This document shows, one piece after another, positions 225 through 14,037 of a stretch of DNA of 16,501 nt. The stretch's first letter is position 1. Every line of letters begins with the position of its first letter. The DNA is from Desulfobacterales bacterium (GTDB taxonomy: Bacteria; Desulfobacterota; Desulfobacteria; Desulfobacterales; JAFDCJ01): the NCBI GenBank assembly GCA_020345785.1, contig CP070771.1, positions 5,913,314-5,929,814 of the forward strand, read 5' to 3'. The notes beneath the pieces were generated by a model that worked only from the letters and a program-made list of their open reading frames with translations, made no database searches and was not told the DNA's origin. The position numbers and the translations under genes were made by a program.

Positions 225-1457
225 CTACCAGCCAAACCACTCATTGGCCCATTTGTCCGGCCAGCGCTCTTTCAAATCCACGATTTCAACGAGTTGAAAT
301 GTGCCATTTTTTACTTCATAAATCGGCACCTGCCCTGAGATACGATGGTCCTGGGCTGTATAAGTCAGCGGCGGCACGTTCAACCCGATATCGAAATCTC
401 TAAACGTTTCAAAACCTTTTTTTAAAATATTTTCACCGGACAGCTCGCCGGCACTGTCGGCCCTGTTTAATGCTTCCCGCAGGGCCAGCACATTGGCCCA
501 TGCTTGAACGGTGCGAACCAGGCGCCTATCGATGGGTACACCGGGGTTGTATTTTTTGGAATATTCGATGACCTTGTCCATCAGGGGTGCATTTTCACCG
601 TAAAATGCGCAGACCGCAACACCCATTACACCTTCCGACGCTGTACCGGCCAGCTTGAGAAAATTTTCATCGAAGGCCCAGTTGTTGACGATGTGATCTG
701 CCCCCAAATCCATCGCCGCGGCAGCTCTGATGGTAGATGCTACCGACAAACCGGTGTTGCCGTGCCACACCAGGTCCGGCTGAAAAGTCTTCATGGCCCG
801 CACCTGATTTCGGGCGTCGAGGGCAAATAACGAAACATCCTGATCCGGTCCGATATAAAATCCGAAAAGTTCGGCCTGATCCTTAACCGCCTTGATCGGA
901 GCCCTGGAAAAGTCTGAGTTCAACATGAAGGCGCACTGAAACCGCGGTCTGCGTTTGCCATAATCCTTGTGGGCGGGCCATTTTTCGTCAAACCATGCGG
1001 TAAGCGCCGCCCTGGCGCTGGACGAATCGTCGGTTGCCGCAAATATATTATACGGCGCTTTAGTCGGATCCGTCAGGTGCGCTGCGTAGGATGCGGATAG
1101 GTAAGGCATTTTATCGCGTGCCACAACGGCAGACAGGCTCTCCGTATCGACGATATGCCAGCCTAAAACGGCCTTTACTTTCTGCCGTTTGAAAAATTTA
1201 TACTTCGCAAGTACTTCCTGAACCCGGTAACCGTAATCATATTGAATAAGCTCGATCTTCTTGCCGTTAATTCCCCCCTCGTCGTTGATATACCGAATGG
1301 CCTCGGCCACCCCCCGGGCATAATCCGCACCCACGCCTGAGGTCGCCCCGCTCAAGTCATTCAGCACACCAATTGCGATATTCTCTGCTCCCATTGCCGC
1401 AGGAACATCGAAGATAAAAAGGGCTACCAGAAAAAAGAGGATGAGATTCGACTTCAT
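225..1457 (-). CDS. Second Liv-type periplasmic substrate-binding protein (paralogue)
   Basis: This is a periplasmic type I binding protein of the HAAT/Liv ABC importer family, 410 aa. A signal peptide covers residues 1 to about 24 (basic start, hydrophobic core, AMGA before the mature end). The mature start, ENIAIGVLNDLSGATSGVG, is typical of the family. It is colinear with the protein at 5004-6233 and about 70% identical by eye, sharing QYDYGYR/QFDYGYR, VLGW, LTDP, FQC, DLVWHGN, DHIVNNW and the RWPDKW tail. It differs at likely ligand-pocket loops: residues 101-103 are HIV here and GTG in the paralogue. I chose the ATG at 1457 over an upstream GTG at 1463, because an AGG five bases before the ATG fits a ribosome site that the GTG would overlap. 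It is the last gene of the array, 341 bp after the AMP-ligase, so it may have its own promoter. The substrate is unknown. Confidence 0.9.
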   Translation of the reverse strand: MKSNLILFFLVALFIFDVPAAMGAENIAIGVLNDLSGATSGVGADYARGVAEAIRYINDEGGINGKKIELIQYDYGYRVQEVLAKYKFFKRQKVKAVLGWHIVDTESLSAVVARDKMPYLSASYAAHLTDPTKAPYNIFAATDDSSSARAALTAWFDEKWPAHKDYGKRRPRFQCAFMLNSDFSRAPIKAVKDQAELFGFYIGPDQDVSLFALDARNQVRAMKTFQPDLVWHGNTGLSVASTIRAAAAMDLGADHIVNNWAFDENFLKLAGTASEGVMGVAVCAFYGENAPLMDKVIEYSKKYNPGVPIDRRLVRTVQAWANVLALREALNRADSAGELSGENILKKGFETFRDFDIGLNVPPLTYTAQDHRISGQVPIYEVKNGTFQLVEIVDLKERWPDKWANEWFGW

Positions 1458-1798
1458 TGGCACCTAATAACGAGGACGGCTTAGTTTACCTTTGATGAAA
1501 AAAAAGAGGAAGGTGATCAGGAAACCAAATATTCGGCTGACGGCGCACGGTTTATGGTAAATGTAAAAAAGATCTTTTCTTCTTGACTATCAGCTAACAG
1601 CTATGAACTATCACCTGGCACTGAAAGCGTCTCAACCCGCAACACAATGCTTTCCCTTCGTCTCAGATCCTTTGCGCTCTGCTCTATACGCTATGCCCTC
1701 TGCAATTGAATCCCATACCCCGCAATCCAATCCTCAAGGCCTGAAAGGCCGCTCCTCAAACCACCGCAGGTGGTGCTCTTCAAGCGCAGCGCTCAGTT
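1458..1798. other. Long intergenic spacer with repeat hairpins and low-complexity words
   Basis: No credible gene is seen in this 341-bp gap. The left half holds a short AAAAGATCTTTT palindrome near 1569-1580 and A/T runs. The middle, about 1590-1730, is built of reiterated words such as GCTCTGC and ATGCCCTCTGC, similar to words in the livM-livH gap at 7495-7555. The right end holds the three-hairpin repeat described separately. A 75-codon plus-strand frame (1603-1830) runs through these repeats and overlaps the ligase gene end, so I treat it as spurious. Confidence 0.6.
1732..1793. repeat. Triple hairpin array with 9-nt GCTCYTCAA spacers
   Basis: There are three consecutive palindromes: GGCCT-gaa-AGGCC (1738-1750), ACCACC-gca-GGTGGT (1760-1774) and AGCGC-a-GCGCT (1783-1793). 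They are separated by near-identical 9-nt words, GCTCCTCAA (1751-1759) and GCTCTTCAA (1775-1783), and preceded by CCTCAA (1732-1737). The hairpin arms differ in sequence while the spacers are conserved, the reverse of ordinary REP elements. It lies 6-67 bp past the stop of the AMP-ligase gene. It could act as a 3' mRNA barrier, but no U-tract follows. Confidence 0.6.
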
Positions 1799-3325
1799 TT
1801 ATTTCTGCTCCCCACCATAGAGCTCCTTGACCTTGGCCCTATCGATCTGACCGTCTTTTAACCGGGGAAGCTCGGATACAAATTCGACGTACTGCGGTTT
1901 TTTGAAGGAGGCGATGCGTGCACCGACAAAATCAATCAACTCCTGCGCTGCGAGGGCTTGCCCTGATTTCAGCTGGCAGACGGCCTTGATGCCTTCTTTC
2001 CACTTGGGATCCGGCACCCCGAATACCACGGTCTTCTCAACGGCCGGATGTTCGAGAATTGCTTTTTCAACCTCAGCCGGATAAACGTTCTCACCACCGG
2101 GTTTTATCAGCTCTTTTTCGGCCTTGCGCCCCTCGTACCACAGAAAACCGTCCTCATCAAAGCGTCCCAGATCGCCGGTGTGATGCCAGCCGCCGCGAAA
2201 GGCCCGGGCGGTGTCTTCCGGCAAATTCCAGTAGCCCTTGAACACCATAGGGCCTTTGACGGCAATTTCGCCGATCTCACCGACAGGTAACGGAAGATCC
2301 CCTTCATCCACCAGGCGGACATCGGTGAGTTGAATGGTTCTGCCGGCGGACCTCGGTTTGTCGTCATAGCGGCCCATGGTGGCGATGGCCGATGTTTCCG
2401 TCTGACCGTACATGCAGTAAAAGGTTCCACCGGTCAATTTCTGGTATTTCTCGATAACTTCCGGCGATTCCAGTCCGGGGACATGCAGCAGAGACTGGAT
2501 GCTTCGGCCGGATTTTTCACTTTCAGCGAGAATCGACGACAGAATCGGCGCAAAATCAAACATAACGGATACCTGTTTCTGCTCGATGAGTTCGACAGCC
2601 CGGGCGGCATCAAATTTGCTCATATTAATGTTTAAAGCCCCGGCGTGAAAAGCGCCCGACGCCATGAAAAGACCACCGACATGAAACAGGGGCAGAATGT
2701 TGAGATGGACGTCTGCGGTAGATAAATTCAAGTTGAGACCGATATGAATGTTGGCACTGATGAAATTGCGATGTGTCAAAAGGGCGCCCCGCGGTCTTCC
2801 CTCCACCGCGGCCGTGTGGATGATGACCAGGCCGTCGTCATTGGTCATTTCAGGGGGATGAAAATCACCGCGGTTGTTCATCAGCGTACTAAACCGGGTC
2901 AAGCCTCCCAGGGGCGGCTTGAGGCTGAAAAAATTTTTTATCGAAGGCAGTCGGTCGCGATGAGACGCGATCAACTCCTGGTATTCTGCGTCGACGAACA
3001 GCGCAACCGGTTCACCATCATTGAGGTTGAACAAAACTTCCTCGGCTGAAAGCCGCCAGTTGATGGCCAGCACAATGGCCCCAATGGCGGCGGCCGCGCC
3101 GTAAAGAACAAAGTATTCAAGGCTGTTTTTGCCGTAAACCCCGATGCGATCTCCTTTGGTGATTCCGGCGTCCTGAAGTCCCTTGGCCAGTCGATCGACC
3201 ATATACCGATATTCGCCAAAAGTAAGCATGCGATCGTCATCGACTTCAAACCACGCCGGACGGTTTTTGAAACTAACCGCATTGCGTCTGATCAGATCAT
3301 AAAAGGTATAGTCATGGAGTCCCAT
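1799..3325 (-). CDS. Divergent AMP-dependent acyl-CoA synthetase/ligase (ANL superfamily)
   Basis: This is a 508-aa adenylate-forming enzyme, near full length for the family, expected to activate a carboxylic acid via acyl-AMP to a CoA thioester in the cytoplasm. Visible core motifs are YGQTE at 306-310 (A5), GEIAVKGPMVFKGYW from 352 (A6), HTGD at 382-385 (A7), GRKAEKELIKPGGENVYP from 399 (A8, hinge) and GVPDPKWKEG from 437 (A9). Two elements are atypical. The A3 phosphate loop, normally YTSGTTGxPKG, reads HTAAVEGRPRG (170-180). The A10 motif reads LKDGQIDR (489-496), with Gln493 where the catalytic Lys of GK is normal. The enzyme may use another lysine (K490), be slow, or have a different role. 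It lies 127 bp downstream of the lipoprotein gene, across a strong hairpin. The ATG start has only a weak upstream AAGG. The substrate cannot be told from sequence. Confidence 0.85.
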   Translation of the reverse strand: MGLHDYTFYDLIRRNAVSFKNRPAWFEVDDDRMLTFGEYRYMVDRLAKGLQDAGITKGDRIGVYGKNSLEYFVLYGAAAAIGAIVLAINWRLSAEEVLFNLNDGEPVALFVDAEYQELIASHRDRLPSIKNFFSLKPPLGGLTRFSTLMNNRGDFHPPEMTNDDGLVIIHTAAVEGRPRGALLTHRNFISANIHIGLNLNLSTADVHLNILPLFHVGGLFMASGAFHAGALNINMSKFDAARAVELIEQKQVSVMFDFAPILSSILAESEKSGRSIQSLLHVPGLESPEVIEKYQKLTGGTFYCMYGQTETSAIATMGRYDDKPRSAGRTIQLTDVRLVDEGDLPLPVGEIGEIAVKGPMVFKGYWNLPEDTARAFRGGWHHTGDLGRFDEDGFLWYEGRKAEKELIKPGGENVYPAEVEKAILEHPAVEKTVVFGVPDPKWKEGIKAVCQLKSGQALAAQELIDFVGARIASFKKPQYVEFVSELPRLKDGQIDRAKVKELYGGEQK

Positions 3326-3392
3326 AAATTATCGCCTTGGCTTCAAATTATTCCTTGACTGGGCTTCAGGCTTAAAATGGACCCAATTTGCC

Positions 3393-3440
3393 ATCCCTCG
3401 CCTTGCCGCAGACCTGGCATCGAAGATCAAGGCGAGGGAT
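3393..3440. repeat. Strong intercistronic hairpin (13-bp perfect stem)
   Basis: ATCCCTCGCCTTG (3393-3405) and CAAGGCGAGGGAT (3428-3440) are perfectly complementary around a 22-nt loop. The element lies between the lipoprotein stop and the ligase start. On the minus strand the sequence after the stem has no U-tract, so it is better read as an mRNA-stabilising or processing hairpin, or a repeat remnant, than as an intrinsic terminator. Confidence 0.7.
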
Positions 3441-3452
3441 ATATCATGCAGG

Positions 3453-4049
3453 CTATTTCGGATAGGTGCCTTCAAAGGCGGCGACTTTGGTCAGCCCGCC
3501 TGCTTCGAAAATAGCCGAGCCCTGGGTAACCCCCACCGGGAATGAAAAATCCGGTGCACCCGTCCAAATCTTTTCGATCTGGTCCATAAAGCCCACTCCT
3601 TTTGCCTTTAGTTCCTGGCCCGCAACGACCAGCAAACTCAACTGCGTACCGCTGAAGTCGTACATGACCTCCACCCGCAGCTGGTTTGTCTTGCCGGCCG
3701 GAATCCACATGATCTCGTTGGAATACCCCGAATTGATCTGGAACCCGTCGATGACACAGGCGAATTTTAAGCCATTCAGCATGACCGGAAAGGAGTTGGG
3801 GTTTTCAATATTAAAGATAAAAGCGTAATCCAGCGGAGCTGAATTGTTTCCGGCCTTTCCCTTGGTCGGTTCGACCTTGTTGTTGTAAAACCACCAGCCA
3901 AAGTAATGGGCCACATCGACATAATCCAGGGTGACGACCGGCGTTTTAAAATTGCTCTCCGTCGGCTTTTGCATCGCCGCGCAGCCGGAGAGGAGAACTG
4001 CTATCCCAAAAACAGCTAAAAACATCAACACAATCGATTTTTTTTGCAT
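3453..4049 (-). CDS. LEA14/WHy-domain-like lipoprotein
   Basis: This is a 198-aa envelope protein. A type II signal peptide (MQKKS start, hydrophobic stretch) ends in the lipobox LLSGC, with lipidation predicted at Cys23. The mature part contains FIFNIENPNSFPVMLNGLKF, followed by VIDGFQINSG. This is the pattern of water-stress/LEA type 2 (WHy) beta-sandwich domains, which read F.IENPN..PV.L..L.F...I.G. I chose the start at 4049 rather than an upstream in-frame codon at 4088, because a good AAGGGGG ribosome site precedes this ATG and the signal peptide then begins correctly. It lies 26 bp after livF in the operon. WHy domains are linked to stress or ligand-binding scaffolds. The role next to a Liv importer is unknown; an accessory envelope factor is a guess. 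Confidence 0.75.
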   Translation of the reverse strand: MQKKSIVLMFLAVFGIAVLLSGCAAMQKPTESNFKTPVVTLDYVDVAHYFGWWFYNNKVEPTKGKAGNNSAPLDYAFIFNIENPNSFPVMLNGLKFACVIDGFQINSGYSNEIMWIPAGKTNQLRVEVMYDFSGTQLSLLVVAGQELKAKGVGFMDQIEKIWTGAPDFSFPVGVTQGSAIFEAGGLTKVAAFEGTYPK

Positions 4050-4075
4050 ATTTACCCCCTTACGCAATTTAAGGG

Positions 4076-4888
4076 TTAAGTGAGCCATCTTTTTCTACGC
4101 TTGTAGTGCTTGACATCCCGAAAACTTTTTCTTCCCCCGAAATCGGTCATGCCCAGATAGAAGTCCTTGATATCAGGATTCTCTCTGAGTTTTTCGGCAC
4201 TGTCGTCCATTACGATCCGCCCGTTTTCCAGCACGTAGGCGTGGGGGGCCACATTGAGGGCCAGTTTGGCATTCTGTTCCACCAGGAGCATGGAGATTTT
4301 TTCCTCTTGATTGAGCCGGGTAATGATGTTGAAGATCTCTTGGATGAGAAGGGGCGCCAGACCCATGGATGGCTCGTCCAGCAGGATCAATTTGGGGCTT
4401 GTCATCAGAGCCCGCCCGACCACCGTCATCTGCTGTTCCCCGCCGCTGATAAATCCGGCGATTTCATTGCGCTTTTCTTTTAAGCGGGGGAAATAGTGAT
4501 ATACTATTTCCAGCCCTTCTTTGATCGATCGACCGTGCTTTTTCATGTGTGCGCCGACCTTCAGGTTCTGCTCCACCGTCAGGTGCTCGAACACCCGGCG
4601 TCCTTCGATTACCTGCACAATGCCCATCTTGGCTATTTTTTCAGGCCCCATCTTGTCGATGCGCTCTCCCATAAACTCGATCGACCCGTCGGTGACCTCG
4701 CCGTCCTCATGCTTTAGCAGCCCGGAGATCGCCTTTAAGATCGTGCTTTTCCCAGCTCCGTTGGCTCCAAGAAGCGCGACAATGCCACCTTGCGGAACTT
4801 CGATGGAAACGCCTTTGATCACGAGAATGACTTCGTGGTACTTGACCTCAATGTTGTTGATCTTCAAGATCCTGTTATCGTCGGACAA
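4076..4888 (-). CDS. livF: Liv-type ABC transporter ATP-binding protein LivF
   Basis: This is one of the two nucleotide-binding subunits of a branched-chain-amino-acid-type (HAAT) importer, on the cytoplasmic face and paired with LivG. The 270-aa protein has Walker A GANGAGKST (41-49), the Q-loop glutamine near 92, signature SGGEQQ (148-153), Walker B LILLDE (167-172), and LLVEQN in the switch region, as is usual for LivF. It carries a basic C-terminal extension (about 250-270, ending HYKRRKRWLT) beyond the normal LivF end near 235-250. The start is a TTG preceded by GGGAGG ten bases upstream; no nearby ATG keeps the conserved N terminus. It lies between livK and the lipoprotein gene in the same operon. 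The E. coli name is by family; the true substrate may not be an amino acid. Confidence 0.93.
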   Translation of the reverse strand: MSDDNRILKINNIEVKYHEVILVIKGVSIEVPQGGIVALLGANGAGKSTILKAISGLLKHEDGEVTDGSIEFMGERIDKMGPEKIAKMGIVQVIEGRRVFEHLTVEQNLKVGAHMKKHGRSIKEGLEIVYHYFPRLKEKRNEIAGFISGGEQQMTVVGRALMTSPKLILLDEPSMGLAPLLIQEIFNIITRLNQEEKISMLLVEQNAKLALNVAPHAYVLENGRIVMDDSAEKLRENPDIKDFYLGMTDFGGRKSFRDVKHYKRRKRWLT

Positions 4889-5003
4889 TGTATTCTGACC
4901 TCCCTGGGGTTTGGTTGAATAGATTCCCTCTCAAACAGTCAAAAAGGTTCAGCGCCTCTCCGACCATTCAACGATTCAACTATTTAACCATTTGACGAAA
5001 CTC

Positions 5004-6233
5004 TTACCACCCTAGCCATGTCGGCCATTTGTCCGGCCAACGGCCTTTCAGGTCGGGTGTTGCCAGCAGGACGATCTTGCCGCCTTTGATTTCATAAATG
5101 GGCACTTTGCCGGCAACGCGATGGTCCTCGGCCGTATAGGTCAACGGAGGCACCCGCAAGCCGATGTCAAACCCGTTGAAGGTTTCAAACCCTTTCTTGA
5201 GGATGTTTTCCCCGCTTAATCCGCCGGCTTTGTCGGCTCTCACCAGGGCTTCTCTGAGCGCCAGGACATTGGCCCAGGCCTGGATGGTCCGGATCAGTCG
5301 TTTTTCGGTCGGGATGCCTGGGTTATATTTTTTGCCGTATTCCAAGACTTTATCCATCACGGGCACATTTTCGCCGTAAAATGCACACACCGCTGCCCCC
5401 ATGACGCCTTCAGCGGCATCGCCGGCCAGTCGCGGCAGGTTCTCATCGAATCCCCAGTTGTTGACGATATGGTCGGCACCCAATCCCAGGGCATAGGCGT
5501 CGCGCACCGTGGCGGCCACCGACATGGTGGTATTGCCGTGCCAAACGAGATCCGGCTTGAATTCCTTCATCGCCAGGACCTGGCTCTTGGTGTCGATGGC
5601 GGTCAGCGAGGTGTCCTGATCCGCACCCACCTCAAATCCCAGCAATACAGCCTGGTCTTTGACGGCCTTGATGGGGGCGCTGCAATAGGCGGAGGCAAAC
5701 ATGTAGGAACATTGAAAGCGAGGTTTGCGTTTGCCGTAATCCTTGTGTTTCGGCCACTTGGTGTCAAACCAGGCGGTGATGGCAGCCCGGGCGTTGGTCG
5801 AATAATCCGTTGCCGCAAAAAGATTATACGGGGTTTTTTTCGGATCCGTCAGGTGGCCGGAATACGATGCGGATACGTAGGGCATTTTATCTTTGGTGAT
5901 CGTGGGCGACAACGCCTCGGTGTCTCCGGTGCCCCATCCGAGCACAGCTACAACCTTCAGCCTCTGGAAAAGCTTATACTTTGTGAGGGCTTCCGGGATG
6001 CGGTAGCCGTAGTCGAACTGATAAAGTTTAATCGTTTTGCCATTGACACCGCCGGAATCATTCACATAATGGACGGCTTCGGCGATCCCGAGGGCAAAGT
6101 CCTTGCCGACATCTGAGGTCGCCCCGGTGGTGTCATTGAGGGCGCCGATCTTAATTTCGTCTGCTCCCGCAATGGAAAGCGATCCGGCGAAAAAGAATAT
6201 CGCAAGTAACACTAACATGAATTTCGATTTCAT
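5004..6233 (-). CDS. livK: Liv-type periplasmic substrate-binding protein
   Basis: This 409-aa periplasmic binding protein delivers substrate to the LivHM permease. A signal peptide spans residues 1-24 (hydrophobic, IAGA before DEIKIG). There is no lipobox, so it should be soluble in the periplasm. The mature N terminus, KIGALNDTTGATSDVGKDF, is the typical type I periplasmic-binding-protein start, followed by VNDSGGVNGKTI and the VLGWGTGDTEALS pocket loop (97-109). The ATG has an excellent ribosome site (GGGGAGG). It is encoded between livM and livF, so it is the core binding protein of this system. A diverged paralogue ends the operon at 225-1457. The divergent pocket loops suggest the pair bind different ligands. 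Confidence 0.93.
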   Translation of the reverse strand: MKSKFMLVLLAIFFFAGSLSIAGADEIKIGALNDTTGATSDVGKDFALGIAEAVHYVNDSGGVNGKTIKLYQFDYGYRIPEALTKYKLFQRLKVVAVLGWGTGDTEALSPTITKDKMPYVSASYSGHLTDPKKTPYNLFAATDYSTNARAAITAWFDTKWPKHKDYGKRKPRFQCSYMFASAYCSAPIKAVKDQAVLLGFEVGADQDTSLTAIDTKSQVLAMKEFKPDLVWHGNTTMSVAATVRDAYALGLGADHIVNNWGFDENLPRLAGDAAEGVMGAAVCAFYGENVPVMDKVLEYGKKYNPGIPTEKRLIRTIQAWANVLALREALVRADKAGGLSGENILKKGFETFNGFDIGLRVPPLTYTAEDHRVAGKVPIYEIKGGKIVLLATPDLKGRWPDKWPTWLGW

Positions 6234-6308
6234 AATTTCCTCCCCTTATTTCTAAGTCGGATTTAAATGAATCTCACCAATACGAATTAATCATCACCTC
6301 CTTTGCTG

Positions 6309-7415
6309 TTAATACGAAAATGGCCACAGGTTGAAATAATTCTTAATTTGCCACCAGCGATACGCCAGACCATAGGGTTCAAATATCATAAAGGCGCAGA
6401 TCGCCAGGCCAAAAGCGGCTTCTTTGACGAAAAGAAAATCCATCATAAATTTTTCACCGATCGCGGTATCGGCAAACTGCATGATGATCAGCTGGAGAAT
6501 CTCCATGACCACCACCATGAATAAAGAGCCAAAAATGGTCCCATGAATGGAACCGACCCCTCCGATGAGAATCACGCCGACCAGCCACAAAGAGACAAAC
6601 CATGGAAAATGCTCGGGGCTGATGGCGGCCAGGTTGCTGATCCAGAATGCGCCGGCAATGCCTCCAAAGAATCCGGCCACAAAAAAGGCCAGCAGCTTGT
6701 ATTTGAAAACGTTGATGCCCATGACCTCCGCGGAAATATCATTGTCCCGAATCGCGACCCAGGCCCTGCCGGCCCGCGACCTCAGGAGGTTGGCCAGACC
6801 GATGATACAGATGATCACCAGCACGATCATCATGTAATAGACCTTTAAATCGTTATCGATGGTCCAGGGGCCGACCTTGATGGTTCCAGGAGGCAGGGAA
6901 AACGCCATTCCGCGGCCGCCGATCTGGGCCACATACTGGGTAATAATAAAATCGACGGTGATGAATTGGGCCGCCATTGTGGTTAAGATCAGATAAAACC
7001 CCTTGACTTTGGCGGAGGGCAGACCAAAGAGGACGCTCCAGAAACCGGCGACGACCGCTGCGGCGATGATGCTGATCGGATATGCCAGGCCCCAATCAAT
7101 CAGGAAGGTCGGCCAGGGAAACTCCAAAATAAGAAGGGTGCTGGTGTATGCCCCGACAGCCAGAAACGCCGCGTGGCCCAGGGTGACCTGGCCGCAAAAA
7201 CCGATCAAGAGCTGCACTCCCAGGGCGCCCAGTATGGTATAGCCCACGGTGTTGTAAACGCTGAGCCAGTAATCGTCTGCAATAAGCGGAATAAAACCGA
7301 ACAGGAATAAACCCAGCAGGATCATTTTGCCTTTGATGAATTTCGTCTGAAACCAGGCATGATCTTCGGTATAGGATTGATGATAATCACCGCAAGGCAG
7401 CCACGTTGTTGACAT
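6309..7415 (-). CDS. livM: Liv-type ABC transporter permease LivM
   Basis: This is an inner-membrane permease subunit of the HAAT importer, 368 aa, with many hydrophobic helices from about 31 to 350. Family marks are CGQVTLGHAAFLAVGAYTS (74-92), GLPSAKVKGFYLILTTMA (131-148), IGGRGM (165-170), and the cytoplasmic coupling loop RAWVAIRDNDISAEVMGIN with KLLAFFVAGFFGGIAGAFW (217-258). A final GGVGSIHGTIFG segment is also typical. The N terminus carries about 30 polar residues before the first helix, somewhat longer than minimal LivM. The ATG is preceded by GGAG at eight bases. It forms the channel with LivH, whose gene lies 137 bp upstream across a short inverted repeat. Confidence 0.93.
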   Translation of the reverse strand: MSTTWLPCGDYHQSYTEDHAWFQTKFIKGKMILLGLFLFGFIPLIADDYWLSVYNTVGYTILGALGVQLLIGFCGQVTLGHAAFLAVGAYTSTLLILEFPWPTFLIDWGLAYPISIIAAAVVAGFWSVLFGLPSAKVKGFYLILTTMAAQFITVDFIITQYVAQIGGRGMAFSLPPGTIKVGPWTIDNDLKVYYMMIVLVIICIIGLANLLRSRAGRAWVAIRDNDISAEVMGINVFKYKLLAFFVAGFFGGIAGAFWISNLAAISPEHFPWFVSLWLVGVILIGGVGSIHGTIFGSLFMVVVMEILQLIIMQFADTAIGEKFMMDFLFVKEAAFGLAICAFMIFEPYGLAYRWWQIKNYFNLWPFSY

Positions 7416-7510
7416 GTATGTTTCTCCGAGTTGATTAAGATAGTTATTAACTTTTGGACCAATAAGTTCGTCCAGGAGATAATATCAAGGCGCAGCGCAT
7501 GGCACATAGG

Positions 7511-7542
7511 GCAGAGCGTAAGTGATTCGCCCTGCGCTCTGC
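7511..7542. repeat. Inverted repeat in the livH-livM spacer
   Basis: GCAGAGCG (7511-7518) and CGCTCTGC (7535-7542) form an 8-bp perfect inverted repeat with a 16-nt loop. It sits 10 bp past the livH stop on the minus strand. No U-tract follows. The surrounding words (GCGCAGAGCGCAGGGC) resemble those at about 1670-1710, which suggests a shared degenerate spacer repeat. It might tune the livH/livM expression ratio. Confidence 0.5.
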
Positions 7543-7552
7543 GCTTTTCGCA

Positions 7553-8437
7553 TTATACGCGCTCGATTCGTTCCCAACCCCACAAGCCGTATGGTTTGAA
7601 GAGCAGGAAGACGGCCATGAACACAAACGGGGCGATCTCTTTGACGCCGCCCGGAAAGTATTTGTCCAGGTATGCCCCGCAAAAATTCTGCAATATGCCA
7701 ATGGTGATGCCGCCGACGATCGCACCGGGCACGGAGTTTAAACCTCCCAGGACGACGGCAGGCAAAACCAGCAGTGAAAGAAAACCGACGGAGATATTCA
7801 ATCCGTTGATGTTGCCCAAAAGGCTGCCACCGACGCCGGCTGCCATAAAGGCAATCGACCAGGCCGCCGCATACACGAAGCGGGCACTCACTCCCAAACT
7901 GAGGGCGGCCATCTCGTCATCGGCCGTGGCTTGCATGGCAAGCCCCCAGCGGGTGTATTTAAAAAACGATACGAAAATAACCAGAAGAATGATTGCGGCG
8001 ATAAAACTCCACAGGTATACCTGGCCGATGACCAGGGGGCCCAGGCGAATCGGTTCGATCGAGAAGACCGGCGGCTCAAATACCCGGGTATCGGTGCCCC
8101 AGATTAATTCGACGGTTCCTTTAAAGAAAAAAGAGAGCCCCACGGTGACCATGATCACGGTTAAAACCGGTTCACCGATGAGTTTGTCCAGGAAGATTCT
8201 TTCGGTCAGGATTCCCAGAAAAAAACCGACGATCAGCGAACAGAGCAGCGCCAGAAGAAAAGGGAACCCCATGGAGTAAAAGCTCAGGGACACATAAGCA
8301 CCGATAAGTGTCAGTTCCCCCATGGCCAGATTCAGCACCCCTGAACATTTGTAGATCAGCACCCAGCCGAGGGCCACCAGGGCGTAAATTCCGCCGACTA
8401 AAATTCCCGTCGTCAGGGTCATAAAAAAAAGTTCCAT
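7553..8437 (-). CDS. livH: Liv-type ABC transporter permease LivH
   Basis: This is the second inner-membrane permease subunit, 294 aa, the usual LivH size. Visible landmarks are LVALGWVLIYKCSGVLNLAMGELTLIGAY split across 20-48 (the conserved N..qGe/l.m.GAy region), the coupling loop TRWGLAMQATADDEMAALSLGV (162-183), FMAAGVGGSLLG, and VLPAVVLGGLNSVPGAIVGG (224-243). The C terminus holds FLLFKPYGLWG, as in this family. The ATG has AGGAG about eight bases upstream. It lies 236 bp downstream of the acyl-CoA synthetase gene, across a MITE-like element, so transcription either reads through or restarts there. It works with LivM, LivG, LivF and the binding proteins. Confidence 0.93.
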   Translation of the reverse strand: MELFFMTLTTGILVGGIYALVALGWVLIYKCSGVLNLAMGELTLIGAYVSLSFYSMGFPFLLALLCSLIVGFFLGILTERIFLDKLIGEPVLTVIMVTVGLSFFFKGTVELIWGTDTRVFEPPVFSIEPIRLGPLVIGQVYLWSFIAAIILLVIFVSFFKYTRWGLAMQATADDEMAALSLGVSARFVYAAAWSIAFMAAGVGGSLLGNINGLNISVGFLSLLVLPAVVLGGLNSVPGAIVGGITIGILQNFCGAYLDKYFPGGVKEIAPFVFMAVFLLFKPYGLWGWERIERV

Positions 8438-8480
8438 TCAATATTCTCCTCGCCAACACGTTATTGTTTAATAATTGAAC

Positions 8481-8596
8481 CTTGACGGTCTCGTAAAAAG
8501 TCCTAAAAACGGCGATTGCGTTTTTTCGCATTTAATAATTTCAATATGTTACACGCACGATTTTCCCAAATTTTGACTTTTTACGAGTTGATCAAG
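8481..8596. repeat. MITE-like element with terminal inverted repeats
   Basis: Terminal arms CTCGTAAAAAGTC (8490-8502) and GACTTTTTACGAG (8575-8587) are a perfect 13-bp inverted repeat. Including the flanking CTTGA (8481-8485) and TCAAG (8592-8596), the arms reach 22 nt with only four mismatches. The 72-nt interior is AT-rich, has a small TGCG-TTTTTT-CGCA hairpin and no coding capacity. The size and shape fit a miniature inverted-repeat element inserted between the acyl-CoA synthetase gene and livH. I loosely remember CTCGTAAAAAGTC-type arms as frequent in Desulfobacterales genomes, which is unverified. Target-site duplications are not clear. Confidence 0.55.
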
Positions 8597-8673
8597 CTTC
8601 GAATTTGAAATTTGTTACTAATTTCATATTTCGTGCTTCGAATTTTTAATTTCAAATAAAGACAACTAATCGA

Positions 8674-10614
8674 TTATTCTTTTAACATCCGGATTTGCAT
8701 GTCGGTCACGATACGGGCCTCGCGCCCGTCTTCGTACTTAATCGTCGTGTCGATATGGACCACTTCTTTGTCTGAATAAAGGGCGTTGACGATGTCTTCA
8801 TATCGTTTTTCAACAAAGGCGCGCCGTAGTTTCCGGGTGCGGGTCAGTTCGTCGTCATCCGGATCCAATTCCTTGTATAGATTGGTAAATTTTAATACTT
8901 TGGCGACATCCGGCAGATCTTTATTGGCCATACGGATTTGTCTTTCCACCAGGTCGTAAACTTCGGGCATCTGGGAAAGTTCCTGATAGCTGGTGTAGTT
9001 AAGCTTTTTTTCATCCGCCCATTTGCCCACCACCGAATAATCGATGCACAGCACCGCGCTGATGTATTCTTTCTTGTCACCGATCACCCACGAATCTTTT
9101 ATAAAGGGGCTGAATTTGAGGCGGGTTTCCAGATACTGGGGGGCGAAGGGTTTGCCGTCTTTTAAGGTAAAAACATCCTTGGTGCGGTCGAAAACCACCA
9201 GATGACCGTCGTCATCGATGAAGCCCTTGTCGCCTGAATACAGCCAGCCGCCATGCAGGGTCTTTTCGGTGGCCTCCGGGTTTTTGTAGTATCCTTGAAA
9301 AACCGACGGGCTGCGGGTGAGAATCTCTCCGTCCTCGCCGATCTTGACCTCGGTGCCGGGGATGGGATGGCCGACGGTGTCGAATTTGATGTCGCCGGTG
9401 CGATGCACCACCGAGATGCCGGCTACCTCCGTCTGTCCGTATATTTGCTTCAGGTTGACCCCGAGGGCGTGGAAAAAGCGGAAATGGTCGGGTCCCATGG
9501 CCGCCCCTCCGGTATAGGCGTTGCGGACCCGGGAAAGCCCGAGATGGTCCTTGAGCTTTTTTTGTACGGAGATCGACGCCAGCCATTCCAGCAGTCGCCA
9601 GTACCAGGGCACCGGTTTCTTTCCGAATTTGAGGTTGGCGACTTTGTAGCCGACATAGGTCGAAAACTCATAGAACTTGCGCTTGATCCAACTCGCGTCC
9701 AGGTATTTGACCTGCACCGTACGTGTCATCTGCTCATACATCCGCGGCGGTGCAAACATGACATGGGGTCCGATCTCGCGGATATTTTCCTGGGCGGTTT
9801 CCGGGTCCTCCGGAAAATTGAGGGTATAGCCGACCTGCAGACCGCAGGAAACCGACATCATCTGTTCGCCGATCCAGGCAAAAGGGAGATAGGAGACATA
9901 GTCATCGGTATCCTGACAGGAATCGACCTGCATCAGATGCTGCCCCATGGTCAGCATGTTGTTATGCGACAGCAGAGCGCCTTTGGGCAATGCGGTAGTT
10001 CCGGATGTATAAAAAAGAAGTGCCACTTCCTCTCCGCTGCCCTTGTTAATCAACTCTTCGAACAGATTCGGCTTGTCTTTTTCCAACTCCCGTCCCAGCT
10101 GCCGCACCTCTTTGAGGCTGATCAAATAATCCTCATTATAGTTGCGCATACCTTTGGGATCATCCCAGATAATTTTTTTCAATTTGGGACATTCGTGAAA
10201 GATGGAAATGGCCTTGTCGACCTCCTCCTGGCCCTCGCCGAATAAAAACGTGGTATCGGAATGGTCGATAATATATCTGACTTCATCGATCAGACAGTCC
10301 TGAAACAACCACACCCCGATCCCCCTGGCGCAGAGCGTCGCCATCTCAGCCCACAAGCCCTCGGGACGGTTGTCGCCGATCATGGACACTTTATCACCCT
10401 CTTCCAGGCCTAAACTGATGAGCCCCAGGGTGATATACTTCACGTTCTGCAGGTAGTCATGCCAGGTAATGGGACGCCAGATGCCGAATTCCTTTTCCCG
10501 CATGGCGATTCGATCCTTGCCGTACCTTTTAGCCTGCTGATAAAACAGCTTGGGGATGGTCAGCTCCGGCGTGATATCGATTTTATAGGACTCGGTTTTA
10601 CTTTCGTGTTGCAT
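8674..10614 (-). CDS. Long-chain-type acyl-CoA synthetase (AMP-forming)
   Basis: This 646-aa AMP-forming acyl-CoA ligase is of the large long-chain (FadD15/bubblegum-like) type. It would convert a fatty or other bulky acid plus ATP and CoA to acyl-CoA at the cytoplasmic side of the membrane. Motifs are YTSGTTALPKG near 202-212 (A3, with Ala replacing the usual Gly), YGQTE near 392-396 (A5), SGDKGFIDDDGHL near 460-472 (A7), DRTKDVFTLKDGKPFAPQYLE (A8), and a C-terminal LTRTRKLRR segment in place of the short-enzyme GK motif. I chose the ATG at 10614 because GAGG precedes it by seven bases; the upstream in-frame GTG at 10629 overlaps that ribosome site. The gene overlaps the livG end by 17 bp, so the two are translationally coupled. 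This supports a link between import and CoA activation. The substrate is unproven. Confidence 0.92.
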   Translation of the reverse strand: MQHESKTESYKIDITPELTIPKLFYQQAKRYGKDRIAMREKEFGIWRPITWHDYLQNVKYITLGLISLGLEEGDKVSMIGDNRPEGLWAEMATLCARGIGVWLFQDCLIDEVRYIIDHSDTTFLFGEGQEEVDKAISIFHECPKLKKIIWDDPKGMRNYNEDYLISLKEVRQLGRELEKDKPNLFEELINKGSGEEVALLFYTSGTTALPKGALLSHNNMLTMGQHLMQVDSCQDTDDYVSYLPFAWIGEQMMSVSCGLQVGYTLNFPEDPETAQENIREIGPHVMFAPPRMYEQMTRTVQVKYLDASWIKRKFYEFSTYVGYKVANLKFGKKPVPWYWRLLEWLASISVQKKLKDHLGLSRVRNAYTGGAAMGPDHFRFFHALGVNLKQIYGQTEVAGISVVHRTGDIKFDTVGHPIPGTEVKIGEDGEILTRSPSVFQGYYKNPEATEKTLHGGWLYSGDKGFIDDDGHLVVFDRTKDVFTLKDGKPFAPQYLETRLKFSPFIKDSWVIGDKKEYISAVLCIDYSVVGKWADEKKLNYTSYQELSQMPEVYDLVERQIRMANKDLPDVAKVLKFTNLYKELDPDDDELTRTRKLRRAFVEKRYEDIVNALYSDKEVVHIDTTIKYEDGREARIVTDMQIRMLKE

Positions 10615-11419
10615 ATAAATCCTCTTCACCCAGATATGCTTTGATCACTTCGGGATTGTTTTGCACTTCCTCGGGTGTGCCGTCCATAATCATATTACCG
10701 AAATTGAGCACGAACACGCGATGGGAAAGATCCATTACCACCCCCATGTCATGCTCAACCAATAGGCAGGTAACCCGCCAGTTTTTTTCCTCGTTGATAT
10801 CCAATATGAAGCGGGCCATATCCTCAACTTCTTCCAGGTTGAGACCGGCTAATGGTTCATCGAGAATTAAAAGCTCGGGTTCCAACGCGAGCGCCCGGCC
10901 CAGCTCGACTCTTTTCTGTAAACCATAGGGAAGCATTCCGGTGGGTTTGTGACGGATGTGTTGAATTTCTAAAAGATCGATGATTTCTTGTTCAATGAAT
11001 TTGCGGTGCTCATATTCCTCATTGGCAGTTTTGCCGATGTAAAAGGATCCGCTGGCAATACCGGATTTCAGGTGGATGTGTCGCCCCAGCCGGATATTGT
11101 CCAGCACAGTCATACCTCCAAAGACTTCAACCTTTTGAAAAGTCCTTGAGATACCCAGCTTAGCCCGATCGTAAGGTTTGAGATGGTTGATTTTTTGCCC
11201 TTTGTAATGGATGCTGCCCTTTTGCGGGTGGTAAAGACCGTTGATGCAGTTCATCATCACTGTTTTGCCGGCACCATTCGGCCCGATAACTGAATGTATC
11301 TCACCTTTCCGGACCGTTAAACTGATGCCGGATAGCGCGTTGACTTTTCCAAATGACATGTGAATGTCATCAATTTCAAGCAGGGCATCACTTTCGTTGA
11401 TAGCATTTGATTCTACCAA
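10598..11419 (-). CDS. livG: Liv-type ABC transporter ATP-binding protein LivG
   Basis: This is the second nucleotide-binding subunit of the importer and the first gene of the operon, 273 aa. It has Walker A GPNGAGKT (46-53), Q-loop Gln95 in SRTFQ, the LivG-type signature LPYGLQKR (163-170, replacing LSGGQ), Walker B LLILDE (183-188), and switch His223 in VEHDM. The start is a TTG at 11419 with a strong AAGGAGG nine bases upstream, and the sequence enters the conserved N-terminal strand soon after. The end overlaps the acyl-CoA synthetase start. About 284 bp of leader and control DNA separate it from the regulator gene upstream. Confidence 0.93.
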   Translation of the reverse strand: MVESNAINESDALLEIDDIHMSFGKVNALSGISLTVRKGEIHSVIGPNGAGKTVMMNCINGLYHPQKGSIHYKGQKINHLKPYDRAKLGISRTFQKVEVFGGMTVLDNIRLGRHIHLKSGIASGSFYIGKTANEEYEHRKFIEQEIIDLLEIQHIRHKPTGMLPYGLQKRVELGRALALEPELLILDEPLAGLNLEEVEDMARFILDINEEKNWRVTCLLVEHDMGVVMDLSHRVFVLNFGNMIMDGTPEEVQNNPEVIKAYLGEEDLYATRK

Positions 11420-13370: not shown

Positions 13371-13403
13371 AGCGCTTGCGCGGCGTGCGCGCCGCGTGTC
13401 GCT
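13371..13403. repeat. GC-rich palindrome between regulator and selenoprotein genes
   Basis: CGCGGCG-TGCG-CGCCGCG (13379-13396) is a 7-bp perfect stem with a 4-nt loop, extended by AGCG (13371-13374) and CGCT (13400-13403) across a small internal bulge. It lies downstream of the selenoprotein gene and upstream of the regulator. On the plus strand a T6 run (13409-13414) follows; on the minus strand none does. Its orientation does not fit a terminator for the selenoprotein gene. Confidence 0.5.
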
Positions 13404-13508
13404 CCACCTTTTTTATAGCAATAATTCCAATTTAAAACGACAGAATTCCTTCATTATTCATTCGACATTCTTTAGTCATTCGACATTCGTCAATATTCAT
13501 TCCTGGGG

Positions 13509-13522
13509 CTTCCAGCCGGAAA
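13509..13522 (-). promoter_or_regulatory. Putative bacterial SECIS for the second UGA (Sec73)
   Basis: Eleven nucleotides after the UGA at 13534-13536 the mRNA can form UUCC-GGCU-GGAA (a four-pair stem plus a U-G pair) with an apical loop starting GG. Spacing and loop resemble the SECIS of E. coli fdhF, whose loop is GGUCU. Most of the hairpin lies beyond the presumed UGA stop at 13525-13527, so it is largely in the 3' untranslated region. No folding calculation was run. Confidence 0.55.
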
Positions 13523-13524
13523 AA

Positions 13525-13752
13525 TCAGACCGCTCAGGTACCCCCGTCAAAGCCGATGGTTACATTTTCACCTTCGGCGATTACCGGAACCTTTCTGATG
13601 CCCTTGGAGAGCTTCAGCATGCGGTCGAGATGTCGCCTGTTTTTTACGACATTCAAATAATCAAACGGCCGGCCTTCTTTGGCAAATGCTTCACGAGCTG
13701 CCCTGGTATAGGGTCAAGCGTCCTTTCCAAAAATCAGAATTTTATCAGCCAT
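13525..13752 (-). CDS. Glutaredoxin-like selenoprotein with two Sec codons (Uxx-star type)
   Basis: This is a 75-aa thioredoxin-fold protein that is open only if two in-frame UGA codons (13714-13716 and 13534-13536) are read as selenocysteine. Residues 1-16 read MADKILIFGKDAUPYT, placing Sec13 at the first position of a CPYT-type glutaredoxin active site. The cis-proline motif KVPVI is at 54-58 and the glutathione-site GG at 70-71. The end is GGTUAV-stop, with Sec73 third from the C terminus. This matches my memory of the 'Uxx-star' glutaredoxin-like (seleno)protein family, which has Sec or Cys at that place. There are no cysteines, so a Sec-Sec pair may be the redox couple. The ATG has GGGAG about ten bases upstream, and hairpins follow both UGAs at 11 nt. 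It would act as a cytosolic reductase or peroxide/thiol handler; partners are unknown. It is upstream of, and codirectional with, the GAF-PAS regulator. No sel genes are in the window. Confidence 0.85.
13681..13702 (-). promoter_or_regulatory. Putative bacterial SECIS for the first UGA (Sec13)
   Basis: Eleven nucleotides after the UGA at 13714-13716 the mRNA can fold as GGCA-GCU, loop CGUGA, AGC, a three-base bulge AUU, then UGCC: seven pairs with a G at the second loop position. Bacterial SECIS elements lie just inside the coding region at this distance and carry a G early in the apical loop (known from E. coli fdhF and fdnG). The fold was found by eye. Confidence 0.6.
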
Positions 13753-14037
13753 CTTTTCTTCTCCCGTTGGGGCAATACCGATAACATTTTCCCGAAATCG
13801 ATATGTGTGCCAATTTGAATTTTTATCATGTTATACATAACGACATAAATCATTGTGCGAAATCAGCGCCCACCAGCAGAGCTGCGGGGATGAGGAAGGC
13901 CCCTGGAAGGAGCCGGAACCACGCTCTGTCACTGGTCGCTGATGTATATAAAAAATTTTGGCGACATCATTTGGGATAAAATGCAGTGGGTTGCAAAAAC
14001 CTTAACAGCCATTATCTTTCGTGTCAACATTTCTAAA
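13753..14037. other. Divergent intergenic region between selenoprotein and HPr genes
   Basis: This gap separates the minus-strand selenoprotein start from the plus-strand HPr promoter. Besides the 82-nt structured element at 13862-13943 it holds a GTTAT-AC-ATAAC palindrome (13830-13841). I found no convincing -10/-35 pair for the selenoprotein gene. A TTGGCAC on the minus strand lacks the matching GC at the -12 position needed for a sigma54 promoter. Confidence 0.5.
13862..13943. ncRNA. Unassigned 82-nt structured element (possible sRNA or leader RNA)
   Basis: The ends ATCAGCG (13862-13868) and CGCTGAT (13937-13943) pair perfectly. Inside, ACCAG (13872-13876) pairs with CTGGT (13932-13936), and CAGAGC (13877-13882) with GCTCTG (13923-13928). 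This gives 18 pairs interrupted only by two 3-nt bulges. The 40-nt top contains GGGG (13886-13889) facing CCCC (13900-13903) and purine-rich GAGGAAGG and GGAAGGAGCCGGAACC words. It is much more GC-rich than its AT-rich surroundings. Either strand could be transcribed: 111 nt before the selenoprotein start, or upstream of the HPr promoter. It does not fit a tRNA cloverleaf, and I recognise no known family in it. Confidence 0.45.

Follow-up and report, generated by a model that had tools for sequence, protein, structure and literature searches.

A predicted double-selenocysteine protein of UXX-star family 1 encoded with two in-frame UGA codons in a Desulfobacterales bacterium

The DNA analyzed here, referred to as the window, is a stretch of 16,501 nucleotides (nt) from a Desulfobacterales bacterium, in which a short gene on the minus strand is predicted to encode a glutaredoxin-like protein with two selenocysteine (Sec) residues. 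An earlier note on this DNA had proposed a minus-strand frame of 75 codons with UGA at codons 13 and 73, and the translation of 13525-13752 bears this out. The frame starts with ATG and runs from 13752 to 13528, with the product MADKILIFGKDAUPYT...VTIGFDGGTUAVU, where UGA is located at codons 13, 73, and 76. The first of these codons (13714..13716) would provide the Sec of a UPYT motif, the second (13534..13536) a Sec at the third residue from the C-terminus, and the third (13525..13527), 9 nt past the Sec73 codon, is the predicted stop. Apart from the UGA codons, the frame has no further stop or frame break, and its product contains no Cys, as had also been stated. A ribosome-binding site, GGAG (13761..13764, minus strand), is present 8 nt 5′ of the ATG, in agreement with the good site described previously. 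An open reading frame of 140 amino acids on the opposite strand (13396-13818, plus strand) overlaps the whole selenoprotein frame, and corresponds to the shadow frame that had been foreseen. The GG landmark was correct in that GG precedes Sec73 (GFDGGTU), although it may not be the canonical GG of glutaredoxins, which has the form GGxD: in the alignment with the glutaredoxin of Clostridium oremlandii, GFD of the query pairs with GFD, and the GG of the query comes after it.

The family of the product was established by comparison with profile models. The product scores 104.5 bits with NF041114.2, “UXX-star selenoprotein family 1” (cut-off 72, E = 2.5e-30), residues 5-75 aligning to positions 1-70 of the 70 in the profile, and it also matches the parent-like model NF041212 (84.1 bits, cut-off 66) and the Pfam family Glutaredoxin, PF00462 (37 bits, gathering cut-off 22.9, E = 4.1e-9). 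These matches sustain the earlier assignment to a double-UGA, glutaredoxin-like Uxx-star protein, and the first of them supports the view that the gene is not decaying. At codon level, the UxxT motif (UPYT at 13-16) and both Sec codons of family 1 are present, the second at the third position from the C-terminus (U-A-V-stop), and no essential difference from the family was found. The related profiles of UXX-star family 2 (NF041211, 53.1 bits), UXX-star family 3 (NF047338, 54.9 bits), and the HUGP/GUXX-star fusion (NF045501, 47.9 bits) match most of the window protein but do not reach their cut-offs of 100, 97, and 325, respectively. A thioredoxin-like fold is supported by the predicted model and its structural neighbours. 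Among these, the NrdH redoxins (1h75, 4fiw) share the fold and the motif position, but their solved chains can be aligned no further than model residue 70, and the window protein scores 27.4 bits with NrdH TIGR02194, below the cut-off of 85.75. The YruB-type glutaredoxins (TIGR02196) are similarly alike in fold and motif position but differ in score (37.5 bits, cut-off 88.55), and Glutaredoxin 3 (TIGR02181) gives 31.9 bits, below 90. The alignment with the C. oremlandii glutaredoxin, which we take to be the source of cGrx1 (PDB 7c12/7c10), likewise stops at model residue 70 and contains no counterpart to the Sec73 tail.

A 2026 review (PMC13188914), in the part available, has an entry for “Distant Grx-like protein 1 (UXX-star selenoprotein family 1)” that gives the motif UxxT and two Sec residues, and places it among the families predicted with high confidence. 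The two-Sec arrangement is therefore already known, and the description of the redox centre as unusual in the earlier note was overstated, since the family is catalogued both there and in NF041114. Haft and Tolstoy 2025 is cited in the review as the reference for the fusion family and for UXX-star family 2; no experimental work on family 1 was found in the part of the review available. The Grx-like row seen in Zhang and Gladyshev 2008 (PMC2398784) gives UxxC, so that the link of family 1 to that study rests on PMC13188914. On present evidence from sequence, the window gene is a real, predicted selenoprotein gene of 75 residues, a well-supported member added to a double-Sec family.

Homologues were examined both as deposited proteins and as loci in genomes. 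The protein search gave 117 database proteins at E <= 0.001; the best relatives have 85% identity in this search and 65% in genome contigs. The nearest named relatives are metagenome-assembled genomes of Desulfobacterales/Deltaproteobacteria; no relative was found in the viral contigs searched. Trp occurs at both 13 and 73 in 104/117 homologues (P0002-P0118), and a third Trp is located at the stop position in 30 of these 104. We read these residues as UGA translated with a UGA = Trp code, which would represent a systematic misreading by gene callers. A further 12 homologues have Cys at 13 and end at GGT, as though cut at UGA73, and one is without its N-terminus. As stated in the earlier note, the gene is easily missed by standard callers, which is seen in the Trp and truncated forms of the deposited homologues.

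For the analysis of codons, a set of loci was compiled from the phylum of one relative (G004), where a match above the NF041114 cut-off occurs in 100/395 genomes; the listed above-cut-off matches from this phylum were combined with those of nine nearer genomes. The 129 rows were reduced to 121 by dropping eight, namely four cut by contig ends, three second weak domains, and L020, which is of another type without Sec73, and then to 109 distinct loci, window included, by merging identical copies. It should be noted that the loci are mutually related and were picked with the family model, which favours this architecture. Codon 73 is UGA in 109/109 loci; a locus with Cys there would have been dropped, and L020 was the sole locus dropped for a missing Sec73. 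Codon 13 is UGA in 95/109, TGC in nine, and TGT in five. Clustering at 80% gave 86 representatives, with UGA73 in 86 and UGA13 in 73. This distribution indicates that Sec73 is the fixed residue while position 13 is Sec or Cys, and the suggestion that homologues would carry Cys or Sec at both positions is confirmed at the codon level. No additional Cys is present in 97/109 loci.

Next to each of the two Sec codons in the window, a candidate selenocysteine insertion sequence (SECIS) hairpin was located on the minus strand. The bacterial model given in the available part of PMC13188914 has a loop 16-37 nt from the UGA, a G among the first two bases of the loop, and a minimum free energy (MFE) <= -7.5. 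The candidate for Sec73 (GGCU-GGA-AGCC, 13507..13517) is 3′ of the stop, at a position conserved in relatives; the loop is 20 nt past UGA73 and 11 nt past the UGA stop, with -7.0 kcal/mol when outer pairs are included and -2.9 for the 4-bp hairpin alone. The candidate for Sec13 (GCU-CGUGA-AGC, 13688..13698), obtained by a lax scan, is within the coding frame, with a loop 18 nt past UGA13, a stem of three pairs, and -8.2 kcal/mol over 40 nt. At both UGA codons, the spacing (18 and 20 nt) and the loop G match the SECIS model, with weak stems. An Rfam scan of the window gave no family at threshold.

In most relatives, the hairpin after UGA73 is strong. A strict count required a perfect hairpin of at least four pairs, a loop of 3-7 nt with a G as one of its first two bases, <= -5 kcal/mol, and a spacing of 16-24 nt. 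The controls were 545 dinucleotide shuffles and 562 stretches past the stops of long frames in the same loci, that is, stop-to-stop frames of at least 200 codons on both strands from L011 onward, with shadow frames and overlapping loci included. Strict hairpins follow UGA73 in 90/109 loci, compared with 29/545 shuffles and 17/562 stretches after other stops, and follow UGA13 in 50/109 loci, compared with 21/545 shuffles. Without the spacing bracket, at -5 kcal/mol, the counts for UGA73 become 93/109 loci, 80/545 shuffles, and 70/562 after other stops, and those for UGA13 become 52/109 and 67/545. The hairpins after UGA73, whose loops sit 3′ of the stop codon, comprise 33 different 4-nt arms, each place in the stem being occupied by 5 or 6 types of pair, implying that the structure of the hairpin rather than its sequence is kept.

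Codon 76 is UGA in 51, UAA in 23, and UAG in 23 loci, and 12 have no stop there, so that a stop is present in 97/109. In the 51 loci a UGA stop is located 9 nt after the Sec-UGA, and 45 of them have a strong SECIS-like hairpin past the stop, with the loop starting 16-23 nt after UGA73 and 7-14 nt after the stop. The UGA share of stops is 51/97 in the family versus 273/568 for long frames on the same stretches, with no visible avoidance of UGA stops in the family. We infer that the spacing of the hairpin would allow UGA73 to be read as Sec and UGA76 as a stop; in the window, the hairpin loop is 20 nt from the former, which would be decoded as Sec, and 11 nt from the latter, which would terminate. 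No literature on a bacterial SECIS past the stop, or on a UGA stop beside a Sec-UGA, was found in a survey conducted without full texts, and the parts of PMC4513850 and PMC12013277 consulted contain nothing on Sec-UGA spacing. In the literature consulted, a SECIS-like hairpin for Sec73 past the stop is less covered than the two-Sec arrangement of the family. Through its 51 loci of this kind, the family offers a test provided by nature of how bacterial ribosomes separate a Sec-UGA from a UGA stop.

Regarding the Sec machinery, most of the relatives' genomes tested carry selA, selB, selC, and selD. The genomes checked all carry the family, and comprise nine near relatives and 15 picked for longer contigs. 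A selB match above cut-off is present in 7/9 near genomes and 14/15 longer-contig genomes, and selC in 4/9 and 13/15, respectively. Both selA and selD were found in 21/23 family genomes, 20 of the 21 selD genes having an internal TGA. In the search for tRNA-Sec, at most 149 or 150 of the first-round candidates were scored, and this incomplete scoring may be the cause of some of the selC misses. In the window's organism, the two UGA codons would presumably be decoded as Sec.

Taken together, the product is best interpreted as a UXX-star family 1 selenoprotein acting as a redoxin for which glutathione is optional, with residue 13 attacking and Sec73 resolving; the probability of this reading is estimated at roughly 0.6. 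Its minimal glutaredoxin fold would present Sec13 at the catalytic position of a CPYT-type motif and, on a short tail at the C-terminus, Sec73, which is invariant. Residue 13, Sec or at times Cys, would attack a putative substrate, and Sec73 would then resolve the intermediate as a Sec13-Sec73 diselenide or a Cys13-Sec73 bond, subsequently reduced by some reductase. Since 13 and 73 are the sole reactive residues in 97/109 loci, the simplest scheme would be a 13-73 bond within the molecule, and a Sec13-Sec73 diselenide, as proposed in the earlier note, is plausible. The existence of Cys13 forms implies that a selenenylsulfide must suffice too, and that two seleniums are not required across the family. 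Two SECIS elements would be needed for synthesis, the one in the gene for UGA13 and the one past the stop for UGA73. In a more specific version, one post-stop SECIS would serve the Sec-UGA, the nearer UGA 9 nt on would terminate, loop distance alone would decide (a rule whose safety would fit the ordinary frequency of UGA stops in the family), and the protein would be a glutathione-independent redoxin whose tail Sec replaces glutathione; this version is put forward tentatively, as possible but somewhat short of even odds.

Several observations weigh against the redoxin reading or its details. Cys at 13 in 14/109 loci is at odds with a strictly diselenide centre. The 50 structural alignments listed end at residue 70-71, leaving the Sec73 tail uncovered. 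Both hairpins of the window are weak; the strict scan finds no good one, and the window is outside the 90 loci counted above. The bracket of 16-24 nt was set after the spacings had been seen, although it was applied equally to the controls. A wider search for SECIS elements (16-37 nt, E <= -7.5, many folding windows) proved unspecific, with 45% of shuffles passing (UGA13, 84/109 loci versus 247/545 shuffles; UGA73, 98/109 versus 248/545), and was dropped as evidence for this reason. Part of the machinery was missed even in two near-one-contig genomes, with no selA found in G047 and no selC and only a partial selD in G401, and selB was not found in G096. Finally, a strong match to glutathione synthetase (PF02955, E < 1e-50) is present in 6/8 near relatives. 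In contrast, no such strong match occurs in the 15 longer-contig genomes, in two of which a weak match exceeds the Pfam cut-off. This search, which covered the synthetase alone of the glutathione enzymes, suggests that the family at large does not need glutathione, though the window's own kin may have it.

The distribution of the synthetase also bears on the idea of an ordinary monothiol-type glutaredoxin, in which Sec13 attacks, free glutathione resolves, and Sec73 merely modulates. The Pfam Glutaredoxin match, the glutathione complexes among the fold neighbours, and the strong synthetase match in those 6/8 close relatives are in its favour, but Sec73 is less variable than residue 13, with UGA in 109/109 loci, and the strong match is missing in 15/15 longer-contig genomes (two with a weak match), so that this idea is considered improbable. 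Somewhat better placed, though still unlikely, is a protein for metal or metalloid binding or transfer, with Sec13 and Sec73 serving as soft-metal ligands instead of a redox pair. In 11/109 loci, all lower-scoring members, the gene is near a transporter belonging to one BLAST cluster, the representative of which matched PF01758 (the type of ACR3-like arsenite efflux) when scanned, and metal binding is suggested for UXX-star proteins in the part of PMC13188914 seen. However, no metal gene was observed beside the window gene or its closest relatives, and the neighbours differ among subgroups.

Two further explanations concern the UGA codons themselves. If the third UGA were likewise decoded as Sec, the protein would be longer and carry a UxxU tail; UGA at that place in 51/109 loci and 30 further open codons in the window frame speak for this. 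The reading is very improbable: the same place has UAA or UAG in 46/109 loci, the loop distance of 7-14 nt in the 45 loci is under the 16-37 nt published in PMC13188914 as far as seen, and the downstream peptides, judged by eye, appear unconserved past the hairpin, close relatives excepted. A gene in decay, whose two UGA codons arose by accident, is the least credible explanation of all. UGA is a stop by default and the hairpins in the window are weak, yet the identical two UGA codons recur in 95/109 loci, the match to NF041114 has E = 2.5e-30, and there is no other stop or frame break.

The window gene is located between a GAF/PAS/LuxR regulator, downstream on the same strand, and a divergent HPr-PtsI pair. 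Neighbours were counted from BLAST clusters, in each of which a single representative was scanned; for HPr/PtsI this was the pair in the window. Divergent HPr/PtsI is found in 9/109 loci, window included, and the regulator in 5/109. The gene neighbours of the closest relatives are HPr/PtsI and a SLOG/“Lysine_decarbox” protein, the gene for which is downstream in 13 relatives at a median of 44 nt (L001-L006, L050-L052, L054, L062, L064, and L093) and is absent from this place in the window. A rubrerythrin-like neighbour occurs in 10/109 loci, and the PF01758-type transporter in the 11 mentioned above. No operon common to the whole family was found among the 109 loci, with flanks of 1.5-3 kb that were often cut. 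A divergent subgroup of seven loci (L108, L115, L116, L117, L119, L120, and L127) has GGTUPVK or a similar sequence at its end, following an insertion, with no stop right after Sec-x-x, and six of the seven belong to the cluster near the PF01758-type transporter. Genome G376 has two tandem double-UGA genes (L044/L055), with starts 425 bases apart. Most of the remaining window is filled by a transporter cluster of the branched-chain amino acid type, of the ATP-binding cassette class (225-11419, minus strand), which includes two substrate-binding proteins as well as a pair of AMP-binding enzymes of the acyl-CoA ligase type.
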